NCBI GenBank assembly: GCA_030528905.1
Contig: JAUMXZ010000004.1
Coordinates: 1 to 46,856, forward strand
Source: Clostridia bacterium
GTDB lineage: Bacteria; Bacillota; Clostridia; Oscillospirales; Acutalibacteraceae
Length of the DNA: 46,856 nucleotides
Direction: 5' to 3'
Of the stretch, positions 525 through 4,095 are shown in pieces. The translations under genes were made by a program, and so were the position numbers. The notes under the pieces were generated by a model, which did not search any database, was not told where the DNA came from, and worked only from the letters and a program-made list of their open reading frames with translations. How positions within the stretch are numbered: position 1 is the stretch's first letter; each line of letters opens with the position of its first letter.

Positions 525-1460
525 TTAAATCTGTGTATCCACAAGATAAAAAAACATATTTCTAAGCCTATAGTATATATTTTTCAAGTCAGACATAGGT
601 AATGGGTTTACACCTTTTCCCACTTCAACAGTAAATGCCGGTTTATTAAAATAAGAGATAAACCAGTCTTTAAAGCCGCCAAAAGAGGCTATTTTTTCAT
701 CAGGCTCTGATAGCTTATAGCCGCTTTCTTTTGCTAACATAACAGCAATTTCTTTTGAATTTTTTGGGGTATTACCATTAAAAGAATAATAAATTTCTTC
801 GCCCTGCGAGTGAAATGCAACAGCCGAACAAAAATTCTTAGCTTTACACAGCTGTGTTAAAAACTTGGTTTCCTGCTCACTGTGAGCATACTCACCTCCG
901 TAGCGAGTTCTGCTTGGGCCGTTAATATTATTTTCTATTTCTATTCTCCGAAGCTTCTCCCACATCGCATCAAAATTATGATTAAGGTCTACACCTCTTG
1001 CATTTGCCTGCCAAATATCTAAATTACCGTTACATATTTTTCTCACAAGCCACTTGTATTCTCCGGCACTTTCTTCACCGTGCAAAAAGATCTCAACTCC
1101 ATCAGGATTTATGCAAGGGATTATAAAGAAGCCCTGTTTATCAAGTTTCTTTTTGATAAACTCACTGTTTTTTGACTCATTTAGAAGGTCAAACAAAAAC
1201 ACAAGCAGCACAAGGGCAGTAATATTTTCCATAGCGTGAAATGCAGCACAAAGCAAGACTGGTCTTTTTTGATTACCTATAGCTATACAGTCAATATCGC
1301 GATGACAAGTGCTTTTGGGCGAGGAATCAAATTCTATTCTTACTTCCTTTACATCTTTTATTTTCTTAATAATTTCTTTTCTGCTTTCGTAGTCTGCAGA
1401 CTTAAAATTTTCGATTACACTATTGATATAAAGAAAATCATTTGAAAAAAAGTTTCTCAT
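525..1460 (-). CDS. M14-family zinc carboxypeptidase, probably cytoplasmic
   Basis: A 311-residue M14 metallopeptidase. The zinc ligands are visible as H75 and E78 (FHAMEN) and H217 (AVAFHSQGE), with the general base at E279 (FTVEVGKG). The substrate-binding stretch ARGVDLNHNF is at 154-163. The context resembles gamma-D-glutamyl-meso-diaminopimelate peptidases and MpaA-like murein-peptide amidases, so a role in trimming cell-wall peptides is plausible, but the substrate is inferred. No signal peptide, LysM or SH3 domain is visible, which argues for a cytoplasmic recycling enzyme rather than a secreted wall hydrolase. The start ATG 1460 has a GGGGGTGA ribosome binding site just upstream. The gene is followed after 30 bases by an amino-acid binding lipoprotein gene, so uptake and breakdown of peptides or amino acids may be linked. 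Confidence 0.85.
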   Translation of the reverse strand: MRNFFSNDFLYINSVIENFKSADYESRKEIIKKIKDVKEVRIEFDSSPKSTCHRDIDCIAIGNQKRPVLLCAAFHAMENITALVLLVFLFDLLNESKNSEFIKKKLDKQGFFIIPCINPDGVEIFLHGEESAGEYKWLVRKICNGNLDIWQANARGVDLNHNFDAMWEKLRRIEIENNINGPSRTRYGGEYAHSEQETKFLTQLCKAKNFCSAVAFHSQGEEIYYSFNGNTPKNSKEIAVMLAKESGYKLSEPDEKIASFGGFKDWFISYFNKPAFTVEVGKGVNPLPMSDLKNIYYRLRNMFFYLVDTQI

Positions 1461-1543: not shown

Positions 1544-2104
1544 ATGGAAAAAAATGATTTACTTTTTGAGAAGACTCTTTCACATAAAGAAATATTCAAC
1601 GGCAGGGTATTACATGTTTTTGAAGATCAGGTAGAATTACCCAACAAACATACATCATCCCGAGAAATAATAGAACATCCCGGCGGAGTATGTATAGCCG
1701 CATTAACAGAAAACAACGAATTGCTGCTTGTCAAGCAGTTCAGATACCCTTATAAAGAAGTTATTTTAGAAGTTCCGGCGGGTAAACTTGAAAAAAATCA
1801 GACTCCTCTTGAAAACGGTATCAGAGAACTCGAGGAAGAAACCGGAGCCATAGGAGAAAATTTTATAAGTCTTGGCGAAATGTACCCATCACCGGGCTAC
1901 TCATCTGAAATACTTTATATGTTTTTTTGTAATGTTAAGGAGATCAAAAAAACAAATTTTGATGTCGATGAATTTTTGGAAATTCACACAATACCTCTTG
2001 AAAAATGTGTCGAAATGGTACTCAACAATGAAATACACGATGCTAAAAGTCAGCTTGTTATACTTAAAACATACTATATGCTAAAAAATAAAAAACTTAT
2101 ATAA
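1544..2104 (+). CDS. nudF: Nudix hydrolase, ADP-ribose pyrophosphatase type
   Basis: A 186-residue Nudix hydrolase of ADP-ribose pyrophosphatase size, expected to split ADP-ribose into AMP and ribose 5-phosphate using Mg2+. The Nudix box spans residues 80-102, starting GKLEKN and ending RELEEETG, so the catalytic RE...EE core is intact. The first Glu of the consensus box is Gln here (Q86). A YPSPGYSSEI motif follows the box, and a proline at this spacing is characteristic of ADP-ribose-specific members. ATG 1544 has GGAGG at 1531-1535. It is the first gene after an extended -10 promoter. NAD synthase follows in the same direction, so the pair may couple ADP-ribose recycling to NAD synthesis. 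Confidence 0.9.
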   Translation: MEKNDLLFEKTLSHKEIFNGRVLHVFEDQVELPNKHTSSREIIEHPGGVCIAALTENNELLLVKQFRYPYKEVILEVPAGKLEKNQTPLENGIRELEEETGAIGENFISLGEMYPSPGYSSEILYMFFCNVKEIKKTNFDVDEFLEIHTIPLEKCVEMVLNNEIHDAKSQLVILKTYYMLKNKKLI

Positions 2105-2193: not shown

Positions 2194-4095
2194 ATGAATT
2201 ACGGATTTTTAAAAGTAGGCTGTGTAAATATTGGCTTAAATATATGCGATTGTGAGCACAATACAAACGAAATAATCTCAAAAATAGATATGGCATATAA
2301 AGAACAAATAAAGCTGCTTGTTTTTCCTGAATTGGTTATAAGCGGCTGTACGTGTCAGGATCTGTTTTTCCAGAAAACTCTTCTTGACGGCGTTTTAACT
2401 TCACTTCTGAAGATCACAAAGTCTACGCATAACAAAGATATGATAGTCGTTTTAGGCTTGCCACTTGTTAACGATCAAAAATTATATAACTGTGCTGCAG
2501 TAATCTCACAAGGTAAAATTCTTGGCATAGTGCCTAAATCAAACTTAACTTACGATGAAATGAGATATTTTTCAAAACCTTATGATTTACCCGATAAAAT
2601 ATCTTTTGGTAACTATGACATTCCATTTTCAGAAAACCTGATTTTTTCTTGTCAAAGTATGTCTAATTTTAAGTTTGGCGTTTTGTTTGAAACTCAGGAT
2701 ATAAATTCTTTTCTGATATCATCAAATTACATCTTAAACGGTGCAAATATAATAGTAAGTCTTGGCGGCTTAGCCGATTTTTCAGATTCGCTCTCAAAAA
2801 GAAAAACCACTCTGAAAGAACAGAGCAGTCAACTTCACTGTGGTTATATTTTTGCAAATACCGGTCTTGGAGAATCTTCAACTGATAAAGTGTTCGCCGG
2901 ACAAAATATAATAGCTGAGAACGGCGAAATTTTAGCTTTAAGTGAACCTTTTAACCCTTGTATCACATCTTCCTGCTTTGACTTGGATCTTTTAGAAGCA
3001 TTTAAACTAAAAACTCCTTCCAAAACTCCGCTTTATAAATGCACTAAAATCGAGTTTAATCTTAACTTAGACAAGATATCATCTATTGATCGGAAAATAA
3101 CCCCTGCCCCATTTATTCCGACAGATCTTAACCGGGCTGATTATTTTGAACAAATACTTATGTTTCAATGCGAGGGGCTCAAGAAAAGAATCAAACACAT
3201 AAACGCAAAAAAATTGATAATCGGAATCTCCGGCGGCTTAGACTCTACTCTTGCTCTTTTGGTTTGTGTAAGAACCATAAAACAGCTTAACCTTGACAGC
3301 AGCGACATTATAGCCGTTACTATGCCGTGTTTTGGGACAAGCAGCCGTACTTATAAAAATGCAAACACTTTGTGCGAACACTTAGGTGTTACGGTCAAAG
3401 AAATTCCTGTAAAAGATGAGGTCCTGCTGCACTTTAAAGATATCGATCAGGATATAAATAACCACGATGCAACTTATGAAAATGCTCAGGCTCGTATAAG
3501 AACTCTTATCCTTATGGATTTAGCCAATAAACATTCCGGCATCGTCATCGGAACAGGCGATTTATCTGAAATAGCTCTTGGTTTTTGCACCTACAACGGA
3601 GATCATATGTCTATGTATTCTGTTAATTCCTCGTTACCTAAGACTCTTATTCAGGATATTGTAGCCTATGTTTCCACCGTTTGCGAGGACACTCTTCTAA
3701 AAAATACGCTTAACGATATAGTCGCAACACCTATAAGTCCGGAGCTTCTGCCAAGTGACAATGCTAATCTTTTGCAAAAAACAGAGGATATAATCGGTCC
3801 GTATGAACTTCACGACTTCTTTTTGTACTATATATATTCTTACGGCTTTACACCTGAAAAAATATTTAAACTTGCAAAACTTGCTTTTAGTGATAAATAT
3901 ACAACTAAAACTATTTGTAAGTGGCTTTGTGTTTTCTACAAACGATTCTTCGCTTCGCAATTTAAGCGTTCCTGTTCACCTGATGCTGTAAAATCAAGTT
4001 CTATAAGCCTTAGTCCCAGAGGCGGCTTATATATGCCAAGTGATGCTGTTTGTAAGCTGTGGCTTGACCAGATAGATAAGATAAAAAACTTTTAA
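2194..4095 (+). CDS. nadE: NAD(+) synthase with degenerate glutaminase domain
   Basis: A two-domain NAD synthase of 633 residues that amidates deamido-NAD with ATP. Residues 1 to about 270 form a nitrilase-like glutaminase domain. Its Glu (FPEL, E46) and Lys (VPKSN, K115) are present, but the position of the nucleophilic Cys, normally within a CEDLW-like motif, is Phe165 (FGVLFETQD). The C-terminal synthetase domain looks intact: SGGLDST at 346-352, GTGDLSEIALGFCTYNGD, then HMSMY and a PKTL segment. I chose ATG 2194 because AAAGGA at 2179-2184 is spaced for it; an in-frame TTG at 2185 abuts that site and cannot use it. As read, the enzyme should use free ammonia, or ammonia from a partner, rather than glutamine. 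The ABC-F gene starts 12 bases downstream. Confidence 0.92.
   Translation: MNYGFLKVGCVNIGLNICDCEHNTNEIISKIDMAYKEQIKLLVFPELVISGCTCQDLFFQKTLLDGVLTSLLKITKSTHNKDMIVVLGLPLVNDQKLYNCAAVISQGKILGIVPKSNLTYDEMRYFSKPYDLPDKISFGNYDIPFSENLIFSCQSMSNFKFGVLFETQDINSFLISSNYILNGANIIVSLGGLADFSDSLSKRKTTLKEQSSQLHCGYIFANTGLGESSTDKVFAGQNIIAENGEILALSEPFNPCITSSCFDLDLLEAFKLKTPSKTPLYKCTKIEFNLNLDKISSIDRKITPAPFIPTDLNRADYFEQILMFQCEGLKKRIKHINAKKLIIGISGGLDSTLALLVCVRTIKQLNLDSSDIIAVTMPCFGTSSRTYKNANTLCEHLGVTVKEIPVKDEVLLHFKDIDQDINNHDATYENAQARIRTLILMDLANKHSGIVIGTGDLSEIALGFCTYNGDHMSMYSVNSSLPKTLIQDIVAYVSTVCEDTLLKNTLNDIVATPISPELLPSDNANLLQKTEDIIGPYELHDFFLYYIYSYGFTPEKIFKLAKLAFSDKYTTKTICKWLCVFYKRFFASQFKRSCSPDAVKSSSISLSPRGGLYMPSDAVCKLWLDQIDKIKNF

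Follow-up and report, generated by a model that had tools for sequence, protein, structure and literature searches.

The NadE family of NAD synthetases has been sorted into fused, clustered, remote and none types, and all enzymes of type F characterised at the time use glutamine (PMC3376133). Glutamine-dependent NadE has since been judged widespread, with 19,848 two-domain sequences counted (PMC7196632). In the octameric enzymes the core is double-layered and built of glutaminase (G) domains; passage through the glutamine and ammonia tunnels is controlled by the YRE loop, which also couples both active sites; and Y58, F130 and K644 help form the tunnel constrictions in NadE of Mycobacterium tuberculosis, K644 forming constriction 2A and bonding to E129 of the YRE loop (PMC6946656). 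A C-terminal loop serves as a G-domain interface (PMC3376133). Single-domain, ammonia-dependent enzymes (type N) lack the G domain, and the main branch lacks helix alpha-18 and the C-terminal loop as well, the latter also being absent from the type N structures of branch VI; in addition, two-subunit NAD synthetases are known in other bacteria, such as the type C enzyme of Thermus thermophilus (PMC3376133). Outside the NadE family, human CPS1 keeps a fused glutaminase-like domain that is inactive through loss of its Cys (Ser294), and takes free ammonia (PMC4655335).

Here we describe the NAD synthetase encoded at positions 2194-4095 (+) of contig JAUMXZ010000004.1 (assembly GCA_030528905.1) from a Clostridia bacterium (Bacillota; Clostridia; Oscillospirales; Acutalibacteraceae). 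The whole stretch of DNA analysed, 46,856 nt, is referred to as the window and the protein as window NadE (Table 1).

Table 1. Features of window NadE and its upstream neighbour
Feature	Position	Strand	Remarks
nadE, two-domain NAD(+) synthetase, 633 aa	2194..4095	+	ATG start; in-frame TTG at 2185
Nitrilase-like glutaminase (G) domain, residues 1-280, putatively inactive	2194..3033	+	PF00795
E46, triad Glu, kept	2329..2331	+	M. tuberculosis E52
C52 in place of Y58 (tunnel constriction 1)	2347..2349	+	Tyr in 99% of 128 active rows
K115, triad Lys, kept	2536..2538	+	M. tuberculosis K121
YRE-loop region SNLTYDEMRYF, four residues short of consensus	2539..2571	+	alignment
F165, last strand residue ahead of elbow	2686..2688	+	TTT; column and predicted strand
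E166, nucleophile column	2689..2691	+	GAA; M. tuberculosis C176
Synthetase (S) domain, residues 314-633	3133..4092	+	
SGGLDS motif, residues 346-351, intact	3229..3246	+	
C-terminal loop SPRGGLYMPSD (putative), residues 607-617	4012..4044	+	G611, Y613 replace D656, R658 of active enzymes
NUDIX hydrolase gene, upstream of nadE	1544..2104	+	

Window NadE is a two-domain enzyme without the catalytic cysteine

Judged by its sequence, window NadE is a full-length NAD synthetase of the octameric two-domain type: it matches NF002730 (NadE1-Gln, the glutamine-dependent octameric synthetases) at 693.8 bits (cut-off 473) and contains both a CN_hydrolase and an NAD_synthase domain, the former (PF00795) scoring 41.8 bits with a match confined to residues 9-139. 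Its SGGLDS motif is what we take to be the ATP/pyrophosphate loop. The AF2 monomer model (mean pLDDT 86.7) superposes on the M. tuberculosis enzyme (3dla) with a Z score of 45.9 and an rmsd of 1.9 over 599 residues at 34% identity, and the G-domain fold (residues 6-279; pLDDT block means 80-98) matches nitrilases with Z about 30. The alignment behind this model, a structure prediction of the kind the original prediction had called for, contained 58 relatives, most of them active, so the model speaks for compatibility with the fold rather than proof. No link to the loss described below was seen for the NUDIX hydrolase gene. A second neighbour of nadE is a gene for an M14 zinc carboxypeptidase (528-1460, minus strand).

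The E-K-C triad of the glutaminase domain is incomplete in window NadE, which has E46, K115 and E166 in its place. In an ungapped HMMER alignment with wild-type M. tuberculosis NadE (3dla), FKFGVLFE is paired with FVLHVEIC, which ends in C176, and MAFFT agrees, with 71 rows and again with 152, in giving E, K and E as the triad letters. In the AF2 model the strand 160-165 stops at F165, just before E166, and 82% of the 128 active rows have Ile in the F165 column. The original prediction, made from the sequence, is therefore borne out in that the catalytic Cys is gone, and the alignment with the M. tuberculosis enzyme and Clostridia homologues that it proposed shows no Cys of window NadE in the nucleophile column. 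It was off by one residue in naming Phe165 as the replacement: its own motif, GVxxC, reads G162-V163-L164-F165-E166 and puts E166 at the place of the Cys. Reads with TGT at 2686-2688, offered there as a refutation, would likewise concern the wrong codon, the nucleophile codon being GAA at 2689-2691. GAA matches neither Cys codon (TGT, TGC) at any base.

E46 and K115 occupy the triad columns in the alignment, as was claimed. Their presence should not be read as evidence of function, since of the 50 rows without a working triad, window NadE included, 34 keep the Glu and 28 the Lys (see below). The spacing, described earlier as close to that of M. tuberculosis, is the same from Glu to Lys (69 residues in both) and differs from Lys to nucleophile (51 versus 55; the earlier value of 50 ran to the Phe), because the YRE loop of window NadE is four residues shorter.

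The alteration extends well beyond the nucleophile. The sites altered together (M. tuberculosis numbering) are C176, Y58, the Y127-Y131 stretch, E177 (now Thr), D178 (Gln), K209 (Ser), D656 and R658. The YRE loop (YxEFYE) is incomplete, and whether TYDE keeps the loop Tyr and Glu hinges on gap placement. On the synthetase side, the tunnel-side motif SPRGDWR of active enzymes reads SPRGGLY, within a stretch that is inferred to be the interface C-terminal loop. The claim of an intact synthetase domain thus holds for the ATP and NaAD motifs and fails for the tunnel-side loop. Among columns conserved in active rows, window NadE keeps 41 of 66 in the G domain (at least 90% conserved in 128 rows; 25 lost) and 123 of 144 in the S domain (21 lost). 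Since several linked sites are altered and 49 other rows show comparable loss, neither chance nor a base error accounts for the substitution; the argument that an eroded motif speaks against a single base error is sustained, three base changes being needed.

Thus, window NadE resembles the M. tuberculosis enzyme (octameric and glutamine-dependent; 3dla, 3sdb, 3szg) in domain order, fold and S-domain motifs, and departs from it in having Glu for C176, a YRE loop four residues shorter, and changes at Y58, D656 and R658. The crystallised C176A mutants of M. tuberculosis NadE are its laboratory counterpart.

Loss of the triad recurs among Clostridia

The window's family contributed two-domain NadE sequences from 150 genomes, its order from 197 and its class from 148, and 80 loci of named genomes were added; the source assemblies are public and include many metagenome bins. 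Once eight fragments and four duplicates had been discarded, 297 non-redundant rows and the M. tuberculosis reference made up the set; broken or S-only pieces, some other partial matches, dimeric-type NadE matches and four members of the L234 group discussed below (G241, G254, G311, G331) were left out. Rows whose triad Lys or Cys is gone are called dead.

A working triad is absent from 50 of the 297 rows, window NadE included. The other dead rows comprise 12 of 67 from the family, 23 of 87 from the order, 11 of 62 from the class and 3 of 80 from named genomes; the low share in the last group may be bias, that set being ranked by likeness to the window protein. A tree built on the S domain, from which the tested loop was masked out, sorts the dead rows into 27 all-dead clades; these need 27 changes, of which at least 13 are forced by well-supported branches alone (SH-aLRT support from a quick search). 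Earlier, smaller trees gave 18 clades with 7 forced changes and, in the first set with the loop unmasked, 10 with 3. The branch of window NadE is long and its placement varies: it falls beside L072, its nearest active relative, in the first tree, in a clade of its own in the next, and within a long-branch group of dead rows in the tree of the full set, and its loss may not be independent of that in other dead rows. In the S domain, identity to the nearest relative is 63%. The spread of one dead G domain by recombination was rejected, as the nearest G-domain neighbour is an active one in 30 of the 50 dead rows. From these comparisons we infer a repeated, graded loss of glutaminase function in Clostridia, of which window NadE is one case.

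The loss is mirrored in the synthetase domain. R658 is kept in 1 of 13 dead rows and in 98% of 128 active rows, while D656 and K644 are each kept in 8 of the 13. The link between R658 and the triad is strong in sequence counts, but comes down to four well-supported independent pairs. Exceptions occur on both sides: the Arg is kept by five dead rows (L040, L209, L228, L260, L266) and missing from 12 others whose triad is intact, including one fragment.

One genome (G158) carries both an intact-triad two-domain NadE and a copy with a collapsed G domain (L223 and L241).

Replacement residue and stages of decay

At the nucleophile column, the 40 dead rows with a readable codon have Gly (31), Cys (3), Ser (2), Ala (2), Tyr (1) or Asp (1); nine further rows have a gap, and window NadE has Glu. 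The three rows that retain Cys (L066, L069, L231) are without both Glu and Lys. Among the 27 dead clades, 24 include a row with Gly (p about 4e-16 under an expectation of one in six, a rough null that ignores mutation bias). The nucleophile elbow is strained in such folds, and relaxation of this strain by Gly is a possible explanation for the preference. Of the 31 Gly codons, 15 end in A or G and so did not arise from TGY by a recent single step. The GAA codon of window NadE, one transition away from GGA, may have arisen via Gly.

The dead rows can be arranged by the extent of decay. In the mildest (L040, L260, L266) most of the site is kept; in a middle stage, to which window NadE, L089 and L126 belong, the loop is shortened or scrambled; and in a strong stage (L066, L068, L069, L230, L231) the Glu is lost as well. 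In the most extreme stage, represented by one family of the order (f10; L234-L237 and L239-L242), E, K and C are all absent, the C-terminal loop is cut to LPYMPAD or similar, and a remnant of the G domain keeps GESSADNV or similar. The G domain of L237 and L239 is about 215 residues long, counted from the first Met, and L237 scores 372 bits against NF002730, under the cut-off of 473. Losses do not follow one set sequence: in L157 and L201 all three of E, K and C are still there, yet the YRE loop is eroded and R658 is missing, and given these two rows the Cys criterion may undercount inactive enzymes. In genome G383, the NadE frame L270 has Gly at the nucleophile and a stop inside the G domain, which is either a sequencing error or the start of domain loss.

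Sister pairs of dead rows show a relaxed G domain; L052 and L061, for example, are 0.40 identical in G where S identity is 0.69, against a range of 0.44 to 0.55 (5th to 95th percentile) for active pairs. The closest pairs of the extreme group are more even, with G and S identities of 0.89 and 0.90 (L236/L239) and of 0.77 and 0.84 (L237/L240); in other pairs of this group G lags behind S (0.36 to 0.50 versus 0.56 to 0.65). The conservation of the G remnant in these two closest pairs of the L234-L242 group, like the recurrence of Gly at the elbow, would agree with a new role gained by the dead domain in place of passive scaffolding, for example the sensing of a ligand or the admission of ammonia. 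Structural constraint alone suffices to explain both observations, and for window NadE we regard such a new role as unlikely.

Ammonia supply and the remaining alternatives

The source genome (1.42 Mb, 99.5% complete, 145 contigs) was searched for proteins that could compensate for the loss. Rescue by a second NadE or by a separate nitrilase was rejected: neither was found in the genome searches, the one other, weak match to NadE (L002) being MnmA and the sole CN_hydrolase (PF00795) match being NadE itself. Of 14 control genomes, 12 gave a match in the same CN_hydrolase search. In 20 of the 26 dead-NadE genomes looked at there is exactly one match to window NadE, and so the enzyme with the dead G domain is the only candidate NAD maker in those 20.

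These searches bear on the idea that a separate glutaminase (a type R or C subunit) feeds ammonia to window NadE, for which the two-subunit NAD synthetases of other bacteria offer a precedent (PMC3376133). Window NadE is like the T. thermophilus enzyme in having a nitrilase-like module alongside the synthetase; the partner in T. thermophilus is a separate active subunit, and none was found in the window's genome. The original prediction had allowed for ammonia from another source, and in the form of another nitrilase-type glutaminase, the kind that the search covers, this has lost support; we consider a separate glutaminase improbable. Likewise improbable is a pocket that still works, with C52 attacking glutamine from the Tyr58 position, which borders the glutaminase pocket. 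The C52 column lines tunnel constriction 1, and E46 and K115 are kept, but a Cys at this column is unique to window NadE among the 16 dead rows compared (CASYYAYAISSYYAGA), and the residues that hold or gate glutamine (YRE loop, E177, D178) are lost as well. An assembly error or a decaying pseudogene, which the fragmented genome and the long branch of window NadE might suggest, is hardly credible given three base changes from Cys to GAA, the linked alterations, an open frame of 633 codons, the conserved S columns kept, the status of sole NadE found in the genome and the similar losses in 49 other rows.

The source genome has one glutamine synthetase, so glutamine is not lacking. No ammonium transporter (Amt, PF00909) was found in it by a search that is positive in 14 of 14 controls. 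Amt was found in 5 of 26 dead-NadE genomes, 43 of 68 active genomes and 23 of 52 genomes with single-domain NadE; the difference between dead and active genomes (Fisher p 1.7e-4) counts sequences rather than events, as do all Fisher tests in this comparative analysis. Restricted to the window's family, the comparison is 4 of 11 with 32 of 48 (p 0.09); a tree-corrected test on five pairs is not significant. The missing Amt points weakly to an ammonia-rich habitat and is confounded by kinship.

Proposed mechanism and implications

Taken together, the comparative evidence supports the view put forward in the original prediction, and window NadE is very probably an NAD synthetase that runs on ammonia and has retained its dead glutaminase domain as an assembly core. 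Glutamine hydrolysis would have been lost with the replacement of Cys by Glu166, the shortening of the YRE loop and the drift of the tunnel motif on the synthetase side. NaAD would still be adenylated in the S domain and then attacked by free cytosolic NH3 drawn from the surroundings, as in single-domain NadE. The dead G domain would probably be kept because glutaminase domains form the octamer core, where it would hold the S domains in place. In the usual route of decay, the Cys (mostly to Gly) and the YRE loop would tend to go first, followed by the Lys and Glu, and in one family the G domain would finally shrink to a remnant resembling a pure scaffold.

The expected chemistry of window NadE, free ammonia acting on adenylated NaAD, is that of the type N enzymes (PMC3376133), and S-only NadE matches are common in the window's bacterial family. 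Unlike type N, window NadE retains its G domain at full length, and its C-terminal loop is present in altered form. It thus appears to join a glutamine-dependent architecture with ammonia-dependent chemistry. The precedent for a dead fused glutaminase is CPS1, in which the catalytic Cys is likewise replaced; CPS1 belongs to another glutaminase class and catalyses another reaction, and is an analogue rather than a relative. No report of a natural NadE that has lost its glutaminase nucleophile was found in open-access titles and abstracts, a search outside which most subscription journals lie, and the passages of PMC3376133 and PMC7196632 consulted make no mention of fused NadE with a lost triad.

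We know of no octameric two-domain NadE with a naturally dead G domain that has been assayed. The rule that fused NadE uses glutamine has been applied to large sequence sets (PMC7196632, PMC3376133), and with 50 of 297 two-domain rows lacking a working triad, predictions of nitrogen source and metabolic models of gut Clostridia need checking. Because the losses are many and graded, they form a natural series on the non-catalytic roles of glutaminase domains, and the same series informs which synthetase residues serve only the ammonia tunnel. More broadly, we think it somewhat more likely than not that two-domain NadE of Clostridia has repeatedly turned ammonia-only by a common route, on which Cys gives way to Gly, the YRE loop collapses, the tunnel gate on the synthetase side drifts, Lys and Glu disappear, and the domain shrinks to a re-selected scaffold, perhaps with a new structural or regulatory role. 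If so, a two-domain NadE would no longer imply glutamine dependence.

A further group of rows (L310-L338) lies outside the 297, with additional dimeric-type matches left out. Among 11 octameric-type rows in this group, two of which are near-repeats of other rows, one lacks the Cys: L320, from outside the class and 35% identical, has P, Q and K on the triad columns and a heavily eroded G domain. On the separate branch of dimeric two-domain NadE, the nucleophile is absent in 4 of 18 fetched rows; the step from Cys to Gly is seen here too, in L328, L333 and L338, while L337 has Tyr, and the rest of the motif is mostly kept.
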